Shown piece after piece: positions 55,736 through 64,000 of a stretch of DNA of 64,000 nt. Both the position numbers and the translations under genes were made by a program. The DNA is from Spongiivirga citrea (GTDB lineage Bacteria; Bacteroidota; Bacteroidia; Flavobacteriales; Flavobacteriaceae), in contig NZ_JAABOQ010000002.1 of the NCBI RefSeq assembly GCF_010671565.1, positions 496,001 to 560,000 of the forward strand, given 5' to 3'. Numbering within the stretch: the stretch's first letter is position 1; each line of letters begins with the position of its first letter. The notes under the pieces are model-generated. The model was given only the letters and a program-made list of their open reading frames with translations, searched no databases and was not told where the DNA came from.

Positions 55736-58700
55736 ATGTTTTCATTTAAAAAATCTTTATTCGCTGTTCTTATCACGTTGTTAGGAACTAGTGCTCTCTA
55801 TAGTCAAGTAATTACATCTGATAAAAACTATGTGCATGAGATAACGCCCCAAGTACCAGTTACTATTGGTAATATTAATAATGTTGGTGGTTTTGATGCT
55901 CCTGCGACAGAACGCCATATTAACAATGTCACCTATTTCGATGGTCTCGGTCGTCCCATACAACAAATCGGAGTGCAAGCTGCGGGGAGTACTAACAAAC
56001 CTGTATACGCACCTGGGTGGACTAATGATTGGACTACCGGATCAGGCTCAACCGGATTCTATAATCGTAATGGAAATGTAGCCGAGAATGTACGACAATA
56101 TGGCTCTGACCCTTTTGGTAACAACTCGATTCTTTGGAAATGTGTCAATGATGCTGCTCGTAATGGAGATGGAGGATGGAATACCGATTATATCCCCATC
56201 GATAAAAATGTAAGCTACCGCTATAGCGTTTGGGTTAAGCGTACTCACGGTATAGACGGAAATACCTATCACGGTACTCAAAATGTAAATGACCTTAATG
56301 GTAATTTTCAATCTAATCCGTATTTCTGGGTTGGTGCCCCACCAACTTTAGGACAGTGGTATTTAATGGTCGGAGTGATTCATCCTTACAACTATACTGG
56401 AGCTGATACAGGAATTAGTGGTGTCTACGACCGTAATGGGAATAAAGTTCTTGACGGAAAAGAATTTAAATGGACAGCTGACAGAACTACATCCAGATTT
56501 AGAAGCTATTTCTACTACTCTACTGATGTCAACACCCAACAGTATTTTTGGAATCCTGTACTAGAGCAAGTTGATGGTACCGAACTATCCATCCAGCAAA
56601 TGGTCAATGGGCCTTCCATCAAAGATGTGGTTACCCATATTGAATATGATCAATATGGAAGACAAACCAAAGAGTATTTACCATATGCCACGGCTAGCAA
56701 TAGCGGACTGTTTTTAGGTGGTGATCAGGTAGTTCAAACGCGAAGCTACTACCAACAGCACTATCCTGATGATTTTGCTGATTTACCAGATCATAGAGTA
56801 AACCCATTCTCTGCAACTGCATTAGAGGCTTCTCCACTAAATCGGGTACAAAAACAAGCAGCACCAGGTAAAGATTGGGCAATGGGTAGCGGACACGAAA
56901 TTAAATTCGACTATCAAACTAATAGTACTGACGAGGTACGCTTATTTACCGTAAGTCTTGCTAGTGACTACACTCCTACTTTGGTTGATGGTAATAGCTA
57001 TTATAACCCAGGAGAACTCTCTAAAACCATTACACGAGACGAAAACTATACTAGTGGTCTTGATCATACCACCGAAGAGTTTAAAGACAAACTAGGACGG
57101 GTAGTATTAAAACGTACCTATGAAAGTGAAATGCAGCATGATACCTATTATGTTTATGATGACTATGGGAATCTTACTTATGTATTGCCTCCTAAGGTCG
57201 ATACTACTGATGGAGTCTCTGCCATAGAATTATCGGAGCTATGCTACCAATACCAATATGATGGTAGAAACCGACTAGTAGAAAAGAAAATCCCTGGAAA
57301 AGGAGAAGAATACATCATCTATAATAAGCTAGATCAACCTGTGATGACTCAAGATGCCAATCTTCGTGAGCAGGACAAATGGCTAATCACAAAATACGAT
57401 GTGTTTGGCAGAGTAGCCTTTACCGGTATTCATCATCAACCTGCCGGATTTAGTAGAGAAACCATGCAGAATGATTACGCCAATAACACCAATACATACA
57501 CCCAATATGTCACTAAAACAACCACACCAACTAATATTGGTGGTGGTATCATTTATTATACCAATACAGCTATACCACATGGTATAGCTGAACTGCTTAG
57601 CGTAAACTATTACGATGATTATAATTTTGATCGTGACGGCTTGGATAAACCGAGTTCAGTAAACGAAATAACTACCACGAATAACGTAAAAGGACTCGCC
57701 ACAGGTTCTAAAGTTCGAGTACTTGGAACCAACAATTGGATCACCACCGTTACCGCTTATGATGAAAAAGGAAGAGCCATTTGGACAGGTAGTAGAAATC
57801 GCTACCTAAGTACCATTGATAAAACAGCATCGAAGCTTGATTTTAATGGAAAGGCTCTTGAAGTGGTCAATAACCATATACGAAATGGTGGAGCACCTAT
57901 TATCACTATTGACCGCTTTACGTATGATCATGCGGGTAGGCTACTAAAACAAACCCAAGAACTTGATGGCAATATTGAACTGATTGCCGAAAATACTTAT
58001 GACGAATTAGGTCAATTAATACGAAAAGGTGTCGGCGGAGGACATAACAACCACTCTCTTACCATTATAGACGAACTACTAACCCAACAAAATGACGATT
58101 TGATAACGACCACAACTACCACCAATTCATGGGGAAATAGTGGATTTGCTACTCTAGAAAGTATCTCGGGCGATGGTTATGTTGAATTTGAAGTAACTGC
58201 AACTAATAAATATTTAATGGTTGGCCTATCAGTTGACAATCCGGATGCACACTATAATACAATTAATTTTGCAATTTATCCTAGGTCTGGAGGAGAAGTA
58301 CGGGTATACGAAAACGGAAGTTATAAAGGTTCATTTGACACCTACGTTATAGGCGATGTTTTAAGGGTAGAAAGGGTCGGCAGTACTATTTACTACAAAA
58401 AGAACAACACTACTATTTACACTTCAACAATAAGTTCAACTGCTACCCTTATTGGTGATGTAGCTTTCCACAGCACGGGTAGTTCCATTAAAAACCTAAA
58501 AGTTGTCAATTTTTCTTCGCAAAATTTTAAAAGTAGTGCCTTACAAAATGTAGATTATAACTACAATGTACGTGGCTGGTTAAAAGACATTAATGATGTC
58601 AATAACCCAGGCAATGACCTCTTTAGTTTTAAAATTGATTACAATACCAGCGCGAATGCATTATTTAACGGTAACATTGCCAAAACTTCGTGGCGTACGG

Positions 58701-60811
58701 CTAATACCGATAACAGCTTAAAAAGCTACGACTACACCTATGATGCGCTCAATAGAATTAAATCCGGGATCAGTAATAACGTGAACTACGACCTCTCCAA
58801 CGTTAACTACGACAAAAACGGGAATATCCTAAACCTAAACCGTAAAGGACACCTAAACACAGGTGCGACTTCCTTTGGCGTGATGGATATCCTGAGTTAT
58901 CAATATGACGATGGCAATAAACTGACCAAAGTCACTGATGCCGGCAATGACAATTACGGATTTAAAGATGGTTCTAACAATGACAACGACTATACCTATG
59001 ATGCCAATGGTAATATGGAAAAAGACCAAAACAAAGGTATTACTAATATCGTGTATAACTATTTAAGCTTACCAACCAAGGTAACAGTAACTGGCAGTAA
59101 TGCAGGAGTGATTGAATTTATATACGATGCGACAGGTGCTAAACAACGAAAAGTTGTAAGTTCTGGAACTACTGTTGACTATGCCGCAGGATATATTTAT
59201 GAAAACGGAAACTTAATACAGTTCTCACAACCAGAAGGATATGTGAAACTTGATGGAAACGGTTATATGTATGTGTATAGTTTTCTTGACCACTTAGGTT
59301 CTGTTAGATTGGATTATTCTGATATGAATAATGATGGTACTGTAAACAGTTCTGAAATATTACAAGAGCGAAATACGTATCCCTTTGGACTTGAACACAA
59401 AGGATATAATGACCAAATTATTGATGCCGAAAATACTTATCAAACGTATTTAGGTCAGGAAACCAACAAAGAGTTAGGCTTGAATTGGTTAACCTTTAGG
59501 CATCGAAACTATATGCCAGAAATAGGCAGATTCTTTGGTGTTGATCCTGTTTCTGCGGATTATGTAAACATATCTACTTATCAATTTGCGCATAACAACC
59601 CCGTCTCTAAAATTGAGCTAGAAGGATTAGAAGGATATCAACCAAATGGTTTTGATGTTATAAATGCGCTTCCCTCTGGAGGAGGTACACAAAACCCTGC
59701 AGCTCACTTACCATTACCTATTGGCGATGGAACAGGAAAACATGGTAGCGTTGCTAAGGCAAAACCACAAATTAATGCGCAAATAGGAGTGGGGGCAGGA
59801 AAAACTATCGGCGCAAACTTTAAACTATTTGGCATTGAAGCGGGAGCAACTTATGACGGAGGTACAACGGAACAAACTTTTAGTACTTTAGATGGCGGAG
59901 TTACCTCTCATACGGAAGGATACTCCGTAAATGCTGCGATATTTGGTTATTCCAAAGGAACATCTACCGATTTGAGTGTAGGGGAAAACAAAACAACAAG
60001 CAGTTCGACCATGATAGTAACCGAAGAACAAACCTTTTCCACTACCCAAACTAGTTCGGAAGCTTTTTCGTATGCCTTTGGAGAAGCCTCCTTTGATACA
60101 ACTACTAACGTTGATGTCTCAATTGAAGAATTTTCTACTACTGTAACTAATCATTCATCAAGATTAGTTCATGCCAGTAAAACGTCTTTTAATACTTCCA
60201 TTTCCGAACCGACATCCGCTAACACTAATTCTACAAGTCATACATTAAATATTTTTGGTTTTGAAGTTAATTTTGGATTAAGAATTAAGGCTGATTTGAG
60301 TATTGACATACCTTCAGACTATCGCTCTAAAAAACCATATTTGCATCCAATATGTTTTATTCAAGGAACTAAAATAAGGATGGGTAATGGAACATTAAAA
60401 AATATTGAAGATGTAAAGAATGGTGATTATGTAAAGTCTTATAATGAAAAAAACCAGAGGATAGAAAATAAAAAAGTAATTTTAACGGAAATATCCAGTA
60501 GTTCTGAGTTTATAGAAATAGAGTTTGAAAATGGGACTAAAAATATTAATACATTAACTCATCCCTATTTTATCAAGAAAAAAGGTTGGAGTTCGTATAA
60601 TCAGATTGAGGCTATTGACAAATATAAAGTAGCCGTTTCTAAGTTATCAGTTGGAGACATTGCTTATAAATTAGAAAATAATAAGTTAAAAGAGTTGAAA
60701 ATTATAAGTATTAAAATTTTAAAAAAGAAAGAAAAAACCTATAATCTCTCCAATGTTGAAGACAATCATAATTTCTTTGCAAATGGAGTATTAGTTCATA
60801 ATAGAAGTTAA
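55736..60811 (+). CDS. Rhs-core protein with two inserted lectin-like domains and C-terminal Hint domain
   Basis: 1691 residues; signal peptide MFSFKKSLFAVLITLLGTSA. The DUF6443-type start (ERHINNVTYFDGLGRPIQQI) is interrupted by a roughly 210-residue insertion (about 83-293, with NDAARNGDGGWNTDYIPIDK and YRYSVWVKRTHG) before VVTHIEYDQYGRQTKEYLPY. A second insertion (about 769-937, SGDGYVEFEVTATNKYLMVG) splits the YD region before VDYNYNVRGWLKDIND. The Rhs core ends at about 1260-1285 (MPEIGRFFGVDPVSADYVNI). A Thr/Ser-rich stretch follows. The Hint domain spans 1540-1689: it begins CFIQGTKIRMGNGTLKNIED, has TLTHPYFIKKKGWS, and ends in HN at 1688-1689, just before the terminal RS. No toxin follows. 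The DNA becomes visibly more A+T-rich from the Hint region on. Confidence 0.87.
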   Translation: MFSFKKSLFAVLITLLGTSALYSQVITSDKNYVHEITPQVPVTIGNINNVGGFDAPATERHINNVTYFDGLGRPIQQIGVQAAGSTNKPVYAPGWTNDWTTGSGSTGFYNRNGNVAENVRQYGSDPFGNNSILWKCVNDAARNGDGGWNTDYIPIDKNVSYRYSVWVKRTHGIDGNTYHGTQNVNDLNGNFQSNPYFWVGAPPTLGQWYLMVGVIHPYNYTGADTGISGVYDRNGNKVLDGKEFKWTADRTTSRFRSYFYYSTDVNTQQYFWNPVLEQVDGTELSIQQMVNGPSIKDVVTHIEYDQYGRQTKEYLPYATASNSGLFLGGDQVVQTRSYYQQHYPDDFADLPDHRVNPFSATALEASPLNRVQKQAAPGKDWAMGSGHEIKFDYQTNSTDEVRLFTVSLASDYTPTLVDGNSYYNPGELSKTITRDENYTSGLDHTTEEFKDKLGRVVLKRTYESEMQHDTYYVYDDYGNLTYVLPPKVDTTDGVSAIELSELCYQYQYDGRNRLVEKKIPGKGEEYIIYNKLDQPVMTQDANLREQDKWLITKYDVFGRVAFTGIHHQPAGFSRETMQNDYANNTNTYTQYVTKTTTPTNIGGGIIYYTNTAIPHGIAELLSVNYYDDYNFDRDGLDKPSSVNEITTTNNVKGLATGSKVRVLGTNNWITTVTAYDEKGRAIWTGSRNRYLSTIDKTASKLDFNGKALEVVNNHIRNGGAPIITIDRFTYDHAGRLLKQTQELDGNIELIAENTYDELGQLIRKGVGGGHNNHSLTIIDELLTQQNDDLITTTTTTNSWGNSGFATLESISGDGYVEFEVTATNKYLMVGLSVDNPDAHYNTINFAIYPRSGGEVRVYENGSYKGSFDTYVIGDVLRVERVGSTIYYKKNNTTIYTSTISSTATLIGDVAFHSTGSSIKNLKVVNFSSQNFKSSALQNVDYNYNVRGWLKDINDVNNPGNDLFSFKIDYNTSANALFNGNIAKTSWRTANTDNSLKSYDYTYDALNRIKSGISNNVNYDLSNVNYDKNGNILNLNRKGHLNTGATSFGVMDILSYQYDDGNKLTKVTDAGNDNYGFKDGSNNDNDYTYDANGNMEKDQNKGITNIVYNYLSLPTKVTVTGSNAGVIEFIYDATGAKQRKVVSSGTTVDYAAGYIYENGNLIQFSQPEGYVKLDGNGYMYVYSFLDHLGSVRLDYSDMNNDGTVNSSEILQERNTYPFGLEHKGYNDQIIDAENTYQTYLGQETNKELGLNWLTFRHRNYMPEIGRFFGVDPVSADYVNISTYQFAHNNPVSKIELEGLEGYQPNGFDVINALPSGGGTQNPAAHLPLPIGDGTGKHGSVAKAKPQINAQIGVGAGKTIGANFKLFGIEAGATYDGGTTEQTFSTLDGGVTSHTEGYSVNAAIFGYSKGTSTDLSVGENKTTSSSTMIVTEEQTFSTTQTSSEAFSYAFGEASFDTTTNVDVSIEEFSTTVTNHSSRLVHASKTSFNTSISEPTSANTNSTSHTLNIFGFEVNFGLRIKADLSIDIPSDYRSKKPYLHPICFIQGTKIRMGNGTLKNIEDVKNGDYVKSYNEKNQRIENKKVILTEISSSSEFIEIEFENGTKNINTLTHPYFIKKKGWSSYNQIEAIDKYKVAVSKLSVGDIAYKLENNKLKELKIISIKILKKKEKTYNLSNVEDNHNFFANGVLVHNRS

Positions 60812-60812
60812 A

Positions 60813-61232
60813 ATGGAAGATAACAGTATAGGAAGCGAAATTTTGGTCAAATCGCAAAATTTTAATATCAATGTAAAAAGAGTAATTGCATTTTTCATTG
60901 ACTTAATAACTTTTGCTGTATTTCCAATTATAATAAACGTATTAGAAGATATTATTGGTAAAAAAATTATCAGTTCAGATGTTCTTTTTTATGCTACAAC
61001 ATTTTTTTATTTATTTAAAGATTTGTTTAATAGTAGTGGTTCTTTTGGCAAAAAGACAATGAATTTAACTATTATCAATTCAAGCAATCAAGGAATTAGC
61101 TTTTCTTTAAAGAAAGTTTTGAGAAATATAACCAATTTTATTTGGCCTATTGAAGGAATTTTCATCCTTCTTACTAAACAAAGATTATCTGATAGACTTT
61201 TAAATATTGATGTCATAAACAACAATCAATAA
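60813..61232 (+). CDS. RDD family membrane protein next to the Rhs-Hint gene
   Basis: 139 residues, two to three membrane helices. RVIAFFIDLITFAVFPIIIN is the first RDD helix with its R and D, followed by FFYLFKDLFNSSGSFGKKTM, LTIINSSNQGISFSLKKVLR and the end KQRLSDRLLNIDVI, all typical of RDD. It starts one base after the stop codon of the Rhs gene, so it is co-transcribed. The position is that of an immunity gene in polymorphic toxin loci. RDD proteins are otherwise often transport or stress proteins, so immunity is only a hypothesis. Composition is A+T-rich like the preceding Hint part. Confidence 0.85.
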   Translation: MEDNSIGSEILVKSQNFNINVKRVIAFFIDLITFAVFPIIINVLEDIIGKKIISSDVLFYATTFFYLFKDLFNSSGSFGKKTMNLTIINSSNQGISFSLKKVLRNITNFIWPIEGIFILLTKQRLSDRLLNIDVINNNQ

Positions 61233-61251: not shown

Positions 61252-61287
61252 ATTTAGCCAGTTCGATCTGGCTTAGTCAATAAAGCC
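61252..61287 (+). pseudogene. relic of a RAYT transposase 3' part
   Basis: CCAGTTCGATCTGGCTTAGT reads PVRSGLV and continues NKA; the intact RAYT downstream encodes PVRLGLVNKA near residues 149-158, and 17 bases (GGCTTAGTCAATAAAGC) are identical. Preceded by ATTTAG, like ATTTAAAT of the intact gene, with a small deletion and a stop. Confidence 0.65.
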
Positions 61288-61331
61288 CAGCTTTAGGTAG
61301 ATGGTTTGGTATTGATGAACTAGCAGAAAAC
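61284..61331 (+). pseudogene. relic of an Rhs core C-terminal motif
   Basis: The frame reads SPALGRWFGIDELAEN, the conserved end of Rhs cores (compare MPEIGRFFGVDPVSAD of the intact gene). An in-frame stop lies directly before it. It is the trace of a displaced rhs tip or an older Rhs gene. Confidence 0.7.
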
Positions 61332-61392
61332 CCCGCTCTGCGAAGTGTAGCTCTGCGAACGCCCCGCTCTGCAAAGTGTAGCTCTGCGAATG
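61331..61392 (+). repeat. two tandem 31-bp repeats
   Basis: CCCCGCTCTGCGAAGTGTAG plus CTCTGCGAACG (61331-61361) is repeated with two base changes at 61362-61392. GCTCTGCGAA-type words recur four times inside the pair, and CTTCGCAG (61403 region) is the inverse of CTGCGAAG. Confidence 0.85.
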
Positions 61393-61510
61393 TCTGTGAC
61401 TTCGCAGCCTTACTAAGTTACAATGAAATTATTAAAATTATATTGCAGTTTGTAACTGGAAGCCAACATTTTATTGAACAGAAATAGCAATTGAGCTACT
61501 ACATAAAGAA

Positions 61511-61533
61511 GTGCGAAGTTGTAAACTTCGCAC
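61511..61533. repeat. GTGCGAAGTT/AACTTCGCAC hairpin upstream of RAYT
   Basis: A perfect ten-base inverted repeat with a three-base loop, 33 bases before the RAYT ATG. It shares the GCGAAG word with the tandem repeats nearby. It may be a REP substrate of the RAYT, or an attenuating hairpin. Confidence 0.75.
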
Positions 61534-61566
61534 AGCACTACACGAACGTATTTAGTATATTTCAAC

Positions 61567-62169
61567 ATGCAAACAGACGGTTACAAAATAAGAGATCAAT
61601 CAAAACCGCATTTCATCACTTTTACCGTAGTTAACTGGGTAGATATTTTTACCAGAAAAGTATATAAAGATATCGTTATAGAGAATTTGCAGTATTGTAT
61701 CAATAACAAAGGAATGGTTCTTTATGGATATGTTGTAATGAGTAATCATATTCACTTAATAATTCAAAGTAGTGATGATGATCTATCCGGACTAATACGA
61801 GATTTTAAAAAGAATACCGCAAAGAAAATTATAAAACAAATTAATACGGGACCTGAAAGTAGAAGAGAATGGATGCTAAACCAATTTAAAAAGGCTACTG
61901 AAAGCCACAATCGCAATCAAGAATATCAATTCTGGAAATATGGTAACCATCCGGAAGAAATATATTCTCAAAAATTTATGTGGTCTAAGTTAGATTATAT
62001 TCATTTAAATCCAGTTAGGTTGGGCTTAGTCAATAAAGCTTCACACTACATATATTCCAGTGCATCGAATTATGTAAATAATGACGGTGTTATTGATACT
62101 ACAAAAGTAGATAACGCAATTATTAACACTAATAATGATCAAGATTTTTGGAAAAGTATTGCGTGGTAG
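61567..62169 (+). CDS. REP-associated tyrosine transposase (RAYT, Y1/IS200-like)
   Basis: 200 residues, intact. The HUH motif is H61-I-H63 in VVMSNHIHLII and the catalytic tyrosine is Y144 in KLDYIHLNPVRLGLVNKA. FITFTVVNWVDIFTRKVYKD at the start is typical. RAYTs are single-strand DNA endonucleases that mobilise or maintain REP palindromes; they usually occur once per genome without terminal repeats of their own. A hairpin with GCGAAG words lies just upstream. The neighbouring relic shows that another RAYT copy once existed here. Confidence 0.92.
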   Translation: MQTDGYKIRDQSKPHFITFTVVNWVDIFTRKVYKDIVIENLQYCINNKGMVLYGYVVMSNHIHLIIQSSDDDLSGLIRDFKKNTAKKIIKQINTGPESRREWMLNQFKKATESHNRNQEYQFWKYGNHPEEIYSQKFMWSKLDYIHLNPVRLGLVNKASHYIYSSASNYVNNDGVIDTTKVDNAIINTNNDQDFWKSIAW

Positions 62170-62306: not shown

Positions 62307-64000
62307 ATGACAAAAAAACTACTATACTTTTTTCTTGTTTTAATTTCCTGCCAGTTCATTAACGGGCAACAAGAAACCGCTATTTGGTATTTTGGTGAGT
62401 ACGCAGGCCTCGATTTTCGTGGTGGAGACCCAGTAGAACTTACAGACAGCGCCATGCGTACTATTGAAGGTACATCTGTCATAGCTACTGCAACAGGCGA
62501 TTTACGATTTTATACCAACGGTGTTAACATCTGGAACCGTAATCATCAAATAATGCCTAACGGTAGTGGGCTAAAAGGAGACTCTAATTCTACCCAATCT
62601 TCATTAGTCGTACAACGCCCAGGATCTACCCAAGAATATTTTTTATTTACCGTAGAAGAATATGCCGGAGCCGATGGGTTTAGCTACTCCGTTGTCGATA
62701 TGGCTTTAGATGGTGGTTTAGGTGCGGTAACTAGTCAAAAAAACATACAGCTAGCCACTCCAGTAATGGAAAAATTAACGGCTGTAAAACATCGCAACGG
62801 TAGGGATGTTTGGGTCATCGTTCATGGTTGGCCAAATACTGATTTTCAAGCGTATTTGGTCACTGACGCTGGAGTAAATACAACGCCAATAATAAGCAAT
62901 GTTGGCGCAGATATCAGTACACAGTTTAATTTTACGGGCGAATATACATTGGGCTATTTAAAAGCTTCTCCTGATGGTCGTAAACTGGCAATCGCTCATT
63001 TTAATACCACCGTAGAGTTACTAGATTTTAACAATGAAACCGGAATTGTTTCAAATCCCATTCGTTTAGATAATCCTACAGATCGCTTTTACGGGGTGAT
63101 TGGAGGGTTCGAACAACGTAATTTTTATGGTTTAGAATTCTCTGCTTCCGGCGATCGTTTGTATGTCGCAGTACAGCAAACGATTAATAGTCCAAGGGTA
63201 GAATCTGCCTTACTGCAATACGATTTAACCGCTGCTGATATTCCTGCCTCAGAAATTGTAATTGACCGCCCTTTATTTTTAATCGGTGCCATACAACTTG
63301 CTCCAAATGGTAAAATGTATGTGGCCAATCAATCTCAAAACAGTTTGGGTGTAATTAATAATCCTGAGGCACTAGGTACTGGGTGTAACTATCAAAAAGA
63401 AGGTTTTGCGCTTTCAACACGAAGCTTTGCAGGTTTACCACAATTTAATCAGTCCCTTTTTGTAGCAGGAATTTCTGCTGAAAATTTGTGTTTAGCTAGT
63501 ATAACAGAATTCAAGTTAAATGCCAACCAAATACCCGATGCGGTCGTTTGGAATTTTGATGATCCCGCTTCTGGGGCGAACAATACTTCAACCTTAGAAA
63601 ATCCAACTCACACATTCTCTGCGCTGGGTACCTATATGGTAACTGCACAAGCTACTATTGGGGGTATTGTTTCTGATTTTTCAAAAGAAATAACGATCAA
63701 CAGCGTGCCCTCAATAACAAATATTGAAGATTTTGAAATATGCGATAATGATGCCGATGGCTTTGCTGAATTCGATCTGAGCAACTTGGAACAACAGCTA
63801 ATTAATGGTCAAACAAATGTCAATGTTCGGTATTTTAATGAAGATGATGACGTTATTTCAAGTCCAATTTCGGATTCGTATGTCAATACAATCGCTAATC
63901 AACAACAAATTACTGCTAGGGTTGAAAATGTAAATGATGCCGGTTGTTATTCAGAAACTTCATTCAAGTTAATTGTACATCCCAAAGTGGTAGCCAATCC
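62307..64000 (+). CDS. large T9SS-type surface protein, 5' part only
   Basis: Open frame from ATG 62307 to the right edge (564 codons). Signal peptide MTKKLLYFFLVLISCQFING. The first 370 residues form a beta-propeller-like region (ETAIWYFGEYAGLDFRGGDP; YLKASPDGRKLAIAHFN; IQLAPNGKMYVANQ). A PKD domain follows (VVWNFDDPASGANNTSTLEN; PTHTFSALGTYMVTAQATIG), then a repeat that begins FEICDNDADGFAEFDLSNLE. This order is that of Flavobacteriia proteins with a T9SS type B sorting domain at the far C terminus, which would lie outside. Adhesion or gliding is the likely role; unproven. Confidence 0.85.
   Translation, partial: MTKKLLYFFLVLISCQFINGQQETAIWYFGEYAGLDFRGGDPVELTDSAMRTIEGTSVIATATGDLRFYTNGVNIWNRNHQIMPNGSGLKGDSNSTQSSLVVQRPGSTQEYFLFTVEEYAGADGFSYSVVDMALDGGLGAVTSQKNIQLATPVMEKLTAVKHRNGRDVWVIVHGWPNTDFQAYLVTDAGVNTTPIISNVGADISTQFNFTGEYTLGYLKASPDGRKLAIAHFNTTVELLDFNNETGIVSNPIRLDNPTDRFYGVIGGFEQRNFYGLEFSASGDRLYVAVQQTINSPRVESALLQYDLTAADIPASEIVIDRPLFLIGAIQLAPNGKMYVANQSQNSLGVINNPEALGTGCNYQKEGFALSTRSFAGLPQFNQSLFVAGISAENLCLASITEFKLNANQIPDAVVWNFDDPASGANNTSTLENPTHTFSALGTYMVTAQATIGGIVSDFSKEITINSVPSITNIEDFEICDNDADGFAEFDLSNLEQQLINGQTNVNVRYFNEDDDVISSPISDSYVNTIANQQQITARVENVNDAGCYSETSFKLIVHPKVVAN

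Follow-up and report, generated by a model that had tools for sequence, protein, structure and literature searches.

A RAYT gene with REP hairpins behind an rhs gene of Spongiivirga citrea, and the recurrence of such elements at rhs 3' ends

RAYTs have been called domesticated transposases, and to our knowledge the benefit that maintains them is unsettled. TnpAREP nicks the hairpins of repetitive extragenic palindromes (REPs) in single-stranded DNA, and a REPIN or BIME is a non-autonomous unit of 100-200 bp, made of two hairpins, that depends on one RAYT gene. For polymorphic toxins it is, as far as we know, an open question how tips find a landing place on their 3' side, where they share no sequence. 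Going by the accessible parts of the published accounts, the closest described systems are TnpAREP/RAYT subclass 2.6 (Bertels group 5) of Bacteroidetes (PMC6006769), the exchange of polymorphic-toxin tips by single recombination events at the 3' tip, with remnants left behind it (PMC3482391), and the Correia elements (CREE) that flank type VI secretion clusters in Neisseria (PMC10210955). The subject of this report is a RAYT with REP hairpins that lies 3' of an intact rhs gene in a stretch of 64,000 nucleotides from Spongiivirga citrea (contig NZ_JAABOQ010000002.1, positions 496,001 to 560,000), hereafter the window.

We consider it probable that the RAYT and its REPs form an element that is specialised for the 3' ends of rhs genes and spreads together with tip cassettes, and that 140 bases of the window (61252 to 61392) are the left flank of this element, lying in a decayed orphan tip cassette behind rhs. 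Elements of this kind may mark, or help to move, exchangeable toxin tips. A sequence-only reading of the 140 bases had seen in them a RAYT fragment, the end of an Rhs core and two 31-bp repeats, and had taken them to document repeated rearrangement at the rhs 3' end, a view that the findings below support.

The RAYT, its REP block and the core-end relic

Reading 3' from rhs, the window holds a 139-aa open reading frame (ORF), a RAYT fragment, an Rhs relic, the 31-bp repeats, a hairpin, about 100 bp, a second hairpin and the RAYT. The features of the element and its left flank are as follows.

61258..61286, forward strand: RAYT gene fragment (PVRSGLVNKA), from alignment to the intact RAYT and a shuffle test
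61284..61331, forward strand: Rhs core-end relic SPALGRWFGIDELAEN, from its encoded peptide and a DNA match in another genome's Rhs core
61332..61393, forward strand: REP head (CCCGCTCTGCRAAGTGTAGCTCTGCGAAYGY) in two tandem copies of 31 bp, 90% identical to each other
61384..61407, forward strand: left REP hairpin, CTGCGAA...TTCGCAG (DNA fold of 61380-61412, z -3.96)
61511..61533, forward strand: right REP hairpin, GTGCGAAGTT...AACTTCGCAC (DNA fold of 61505-61545, z -4.96)
61332..61533, forward strand: the whole REP block, with two partial copies elsewhere in the same genome
61567..62169, forward strand: RAYT (TnpAREP-like HUH transposase) of 200 aa, intact and single copy

The RAYT scored 97.1 bits against NCBIfam NF047646 REP_Tyr_transpos (cut-off 80) and had one match in its own genome, which makes it single copy. 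The motifs NHIH and KLDYIHLNP in its ORF would, to judge from the sequence, supply the HUH and the single tyrosine of the class; when the gene was aligned by eye with the motifs of TnpAREP subclass 2.6, NHIH fitted, and YIHLNP and WK were each one position off. An IS200/IS605 insertion sequence was rejected on the score against NF033573 (21.2 bits, cut-off 55) and on the single copy. A PDB sequence search with the RAYT returned nothing at E 0.01.

Two hairpins thus lie beside the gene, and two further partial copies of the block are found in the genome. One of these (C17:89489-89636, reverse strand) covers window positions 61381-61530 at 79% identity, and the other (C10:592563-592665, forward strand) covers 61363-61466 at 80%. 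The C10 copy sits about 235 bp 3' of the stop codon of another rhs gene, with a 61-aa ORF in between, so that in this genome two of three REP units are at Rhs loci. A 25-base piece of the 31-bp repeats occurs once more, at C10:592566, with 3 mismatches.

The RAYT fragment proved real. Positions 61258-61286 align with 62011-62039 of the intact RAYT at 86% identity over 29 nt, the last 17 bases being identical, and the encoded peptides are PVRSGLVNKA and PVRLGLVNKA. The ungapped score of 21 was reached by none of 400 dinucleotide shuffles (mean 9.5, maximum 14), and a search of all 17 contigs of the genome (4.15 Mb), with E values up to 10 allowed, matched the fragment to one other place, the intact RAYT itself (E 0.027). 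The possibility that fragment and gene share this word by chance, which the sequence-only reading had proposed to examine by looking for it at random places in the genome, is ruled out by the genome search and the shuffles together.

The core-end relic likewise held up. Its bases 61290-61315 match another genome at 96% over 26 bp (E 1.3e-4), on the same strand and within an Rhs core (G019:C1:821645-821899, found with TIGR03696), and the relic is unlike any of the three intact cores present in its own genome. Taken with the REP head, the relic's final base gives CCCC; the relic is thus the end of an Rhs core, joined at CCCC to a REP block with a duplicated head. Two other genomes, G189 and G072, have a core-end fragment joined to a REP head and then a RAYT, followed 3' by a piece that resembles a toxin C-terminus by position alone and by a further small ORF, and the relic-REP joints of all three loci bear CCC or CCCC.

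The 31-bp repeats are present as described and 90% identical, but they are not an independent relic: on the evidence of the sequence they belong to the RAYT's own REP block, whose head they partly duplicate, and not to rhs. Aquimarina L052 (31 bp, L052:2119-2184) and L051 (43 bp) and G189 (26 bp) likewise have part of the REP head duplicated in tandem, and such duplication is therefore a recurrent form of the REP repeat.

The full RAYTs of four Aquimarina loci are 68-77% identical, and at each of these loci an Rhs core is found no more than 2.4 kb away, in three of them upstream and on the RAYT's strand, in the fourth downstream and convergent. Three of the four (L051, L052 and L053) carry a left block of this kind, with a hairpin directly past the RAYT stop, whereas past the stop in the window no hairpin was seen. 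In L053 (2740-3760), by eye, a piece like the N-terminus of a lipoprotein lies at the left REP and a piece like the C-terminus of an AraC-type protein at the right REP, so that pieces of different genes flank the RAYT element on its two sides.

Linkage of RAYTs and REP units to rhs 3' ends

A search of 395 Flavobacteriaceae genomes found a RAYT at E 1e-20 in 104, that of the window included. From the other 103 we took the best RAYT per genome with 7.5 kb on either side, where contigs allowed, in a first set of 80 and a further set of 20; the remaining three (G293, G384, G388) are not in the count. Linked loci were detected with a purpose-built Rhs hidden Markov model (HMM) made from 33 core pieces, mostly from genomes also in the test, and in 12 of the first 80 the contig stops less than 7.4 kb upstream of the RAYT.

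In the first set an Rhs core lay upstream on the same strand within 7.5 kb in 25 of 80 (23 within 4 kb, 11 within 2 kb), against a chance expectation of at most 0.28, calculated from 293 Rhs matches in 319 Mb. The other placements were rare: upstream on the opposite strand 0, downstream on the same strand 2, downstream on the opposite strand 1. Three of the further 20 were linked, again with none upstream on the opposite strand, so that 28 of 100 family RAYTs lie within 7.5 kb 3' of a same-strand Rhs core and none behind an opposite-strand one.

It could be argued that RAYTs insert widely and survive mainly in the dispensable, displaced cassettes of rhs 3' regions, with no special relation to tip exchange. 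The decayed gene pieces of the region would be expected on this account, and second RAYTs or RAYT fragments are indeed common, being present in 24 of 85 loci. However, survival in a tolerant region predicts both orientations, and the upstream linkage is 28 same-strand against 0 opposite. Nor are other transposases gathered there: in the same 80 genomes, among the best 150 matches listed for Rhs cores and for rve, 2 of 150 rve transposases lay within 5 kb of a listed Rhs core as against 17 of 121 RAYTs (Fisher p 4e-5), where the 17 include two same-locus pairs (G036:C4, G304:C1), many rve matches are near-identical copies, and rve is a single transposase family. The two genomes described below, which have no detected REP match away from Rhs loci, also speak against tolerated insertion, and we hold it to be decidedly unlikely as the explanation. 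As a separate observation, a same-strand second RAYT, 96-99% identical to the best RAYT query, follows 1.3-1.5 kb onward in L141 (G133), L170 (G247) and L119 (G010).

Whole-genome searches with REP units were made in two other genomes, G230 and G150, in which 40 of 41 and 40 of 51 first-look candidates, respectively, were scored. With the 151-bp unit of G230 (E 1e-5), all 13 scored matches fell behind three of the four Rhs cores of that genome, at 1.5-6.9 kb on the 3' side, and 11 of them were on the Rhs strand; the two opposite-strand matches overlap same-strand ones and span a palindromic terminator hairpin. At one of these rhs loci the direct copies are near-identical (151 nt, 97-99%). With the REP pair of G150 (E 1e-3), each of the 15 scored matches follows an Rhs core on the same strand, 0.95-4.5 kb to its 3' side, and together they occupy five separate places. 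In both genomes, then, REP-unit matches were detected at Rhs loci only. G230 has one RAYT (E 1e-20), and two of its three REP-bearing Rhs loci (L205, L268) have REP matches and no RAYT; one RAYT may therefore serve several loci.

On a RAYT tree built by a quick method from 82 of 85 sequences (the three excluded were shorter than 120 residues, all unlinked), linkage is scattered, with 20 label changes of which at least 8 are forced by well-supported branches, and clustering of the label is weak, a count as low being reached in 20 of 500 shuffles. The tree rejects one inherited arrangement as the sole cause of linkage.

REP edges of orphan tip cassettes

The five places in G150 hold 12 cores by the Rhs HMM (one in two pieces), and a REP stands directly 3' of 10 of them. 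Seven of the cores are orphans, and six of these, at three separate loci, are preceded by a REP, the span from where the REP match begins to where the core match ends being 827-935 bp. The six share one format, namely REP, leader, core end and tip, with the same first codon of the core piece, and two intact rhs genes aligned with them have neither REP nor leader. In G150 the REP is thus the near-fixed left edge of six of seven orphan tip cassettes. In the array L202, REPs stand at five of six cassette boundaries; of eight cassette ORFs scanned there, one matched Colicin_D over the cut-off, one matched Tox-REase-9 below it, and six gave nothing. The leader, kept in the six orphan cassettes (L202, L266, L267), is about 140 bp long (141-142 bp in four L202 orphans), and is possibly a promoter or a part of the element.

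A constant order of REP, leader and core in six orphans at three loci is also what inheritance with the cassette would give, and the REP might simply have become part of the tip cassette and be carried by recombination through the core, RAYT and REP doing nothing. Three observations fit this poorly: linkage was gained or lost many times on the RAYT tree, the hairpin sequences differ between genomes, and three different rhs genes of G230, none with another core piece in reach, have related units on their 3' side (78-100% identical, full-length or partial). We regard such passive carriage as possible, though on the unlikely side.

Several observations count against specialisation to rhs 3' ends. 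Seventy-two of the 100 family RAYTs have no Rhs core in reach, and outside the family 1 of 20 RAYTs was linked to Rhs. The whole-genome REP searches covered two genomes plus the window's own, and G230 and G150 were chosen after REPs had been seen at their rhs loci; one of the four Rhs loci of G230 is without a REP, as are the 3' sides of 2 of the 12 G150 cores and the edge of one of the seven G150 orphans. The C17 copy of the window's REP block (L019) has no Rhs core in the surrounding 15 kb. No empty-site strain was found among the genomes searched, which include no genus-mate (60 relatives were searched by DNA, likewise without one). In three of four other orphan arrays (L198, L199 and L201, in G036, G378 and G064) a perfect-stem scan found no REP-like hairpins between cassettes, from which it follows that REPs are not needed for such arrays and that the format is not universal, although such scans miss imperfect hairpins, the window's left one included, and their blanks are weak evidence. 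A rule that REPs stand between all orphan cassettes is rejected by these arrays. Finally, of 52 unlinked RAYTs that have an upstream ORF in reach, 37 point the same way as that ORF, and co-orientation with the upstream gene is partly general.

Co-orientation in unlinked loci would suit a unit that is kept at operon 3' ends because it supplies a terminator-like hairpin, rhs being just one example, and the units of L166 and L146 do contain terminator-like hairpins, while those of L051 have them alongside. Terminator supply leaves unexplained, however, why every unit detected in G230 and G150 sits at an Rhs locus and none at the end of some other gene, and we consider it distinctly improbable.

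Given these considerations, we return to an element specialised to rhs 3' ends. Such an element would live off rhs cassette regions, where the RAYT would copy REP units by nicking their hairpins in single-stranded DNA, and it would spread between rhs loci and between genomes along with tip-immunity cassettes. On their 5' side the cassettes would recombine through the core, and on the 3' side similar direct REP units behind cassettes could give the homology that cassettes otherwise lack. In the window the element would have lodged in an orphan cassette that later decayed, with loss of the tip and of the right REP. A stronger proposal is that a mobile tip cassette has REP hairpins as its defined ends and the RAYT as its mobilase, which would cut at REPs and move or copy the core end, toxin and immunity gene enclosed by them from one rhs locus to another. 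It would amount to an integron-like tip-exchange device derived from a domesticated single-strand transposase, and we think it unlikely.

The relic at 61284-61331 is, as in an orphan cassette, a core-end piece lacking the N-terminal part. A toxin tip and immunity gene do not follow it in the window; what follows is the RAYT and then a gene that begins at 62307 and has a weak PKD match, below the cut-off, and past the RAYT neither a tip remnant nor a right REP was seen. The suggestion that the region may show how rhs tips are exchanged therefore stands in part: RAYTs and REPs recur on the same strand at rhs 3' ends, and REPs delimit most G150 cassettes, but as to causation hitchhiking or tolerated insertion could produce the same picture.

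Two further features precede the 140 bases.

55736..60811, forward strand: intact rhs gene, with DUF6443, an Rhs core at 59378-59629 and a C-terminal HINT/intein-like region
60813..61232, forward strand: ORF of 139 aa that matches RDD weakly (23.3 bits against a cut-off of 24.1)

Among HINT-type profiles run on the Rhs protein, AXH and intein_Cterm scored over the cut-off, and the Hint, PT-HINT and Intein_splicing models under it. The protein stops directly past the HINT/intein-like region (VHNRS), without an in-frame toxin domain beyond, and the next ORF begins at 60813. This 139-aa ORF could be an immunity gene, a candidate judged by position alone; RDD, for which it falls under the cut-off, is a membrane family. 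An Rfam scan gave four sub-threshold matches, none meaningful.

Comparison with known systems

Should the edge of tip cassettes be marked by REPs that a resident RAYT makes, the questions of what benefit RAYTs give and where tips land would meet in one locus. Even as a parasite, an element nearly confined, in the genomes searched, to one kind of locus and one orientation across many genera would be unusual. No paper linking RAYT or REP to Rhs tips was found among those listed, as judged by title and the start of the abstract, in a search that mostly did not reach subscription papers and is weak evidence of absence.

Like subclass 2.6 as set out in the accessible part of PMC6006769, the present gene encodes an HUH transposase, about 180-200 residues long, that contains NHIH, a tyrosine motif of the YIHxNP type and an SS pair; it has a low copy number, and the unusual hairpins at its flanks recur elsewhere in the genome. 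It differs from the table given there, which has YIH[QN]NP and WQ with NH[LIV]H, in carrying YIHLNP and WK (by eye). A second difference is that genes and hairpins are here tied to Rhs loci, whereas 'rhs' is absent from the main text of PMC6006769.

The core-end pieces, tips and small downstream genes behind an intact gene are like the orphan cassettes of Rhs and polymorphic toxins (PMC3482391, in part); in the portion of that paper available to us, 'transposase' appears once, on another matter, and no repeat boundary of cassettes is described. The Correia elements, as the accessible text of PMC10210955 presents them, are similar as short inverted-end repeats, 107-161 bp long, that lie next to an effector locus, but they are a different repeat family, and that text mentions no resident RAYT gene.

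The window's unit resembles a REPIN or BIME in having two hairpins beside one RAYT gene. Whereas REPIN/BIME units, according to the accessible part of PMC2817692, are spread genome-wide in more than 100 copies, those described here number 3 copies in the window's own genome and 13 and 15 matches in two others, nearly all of them at one kind of locus.
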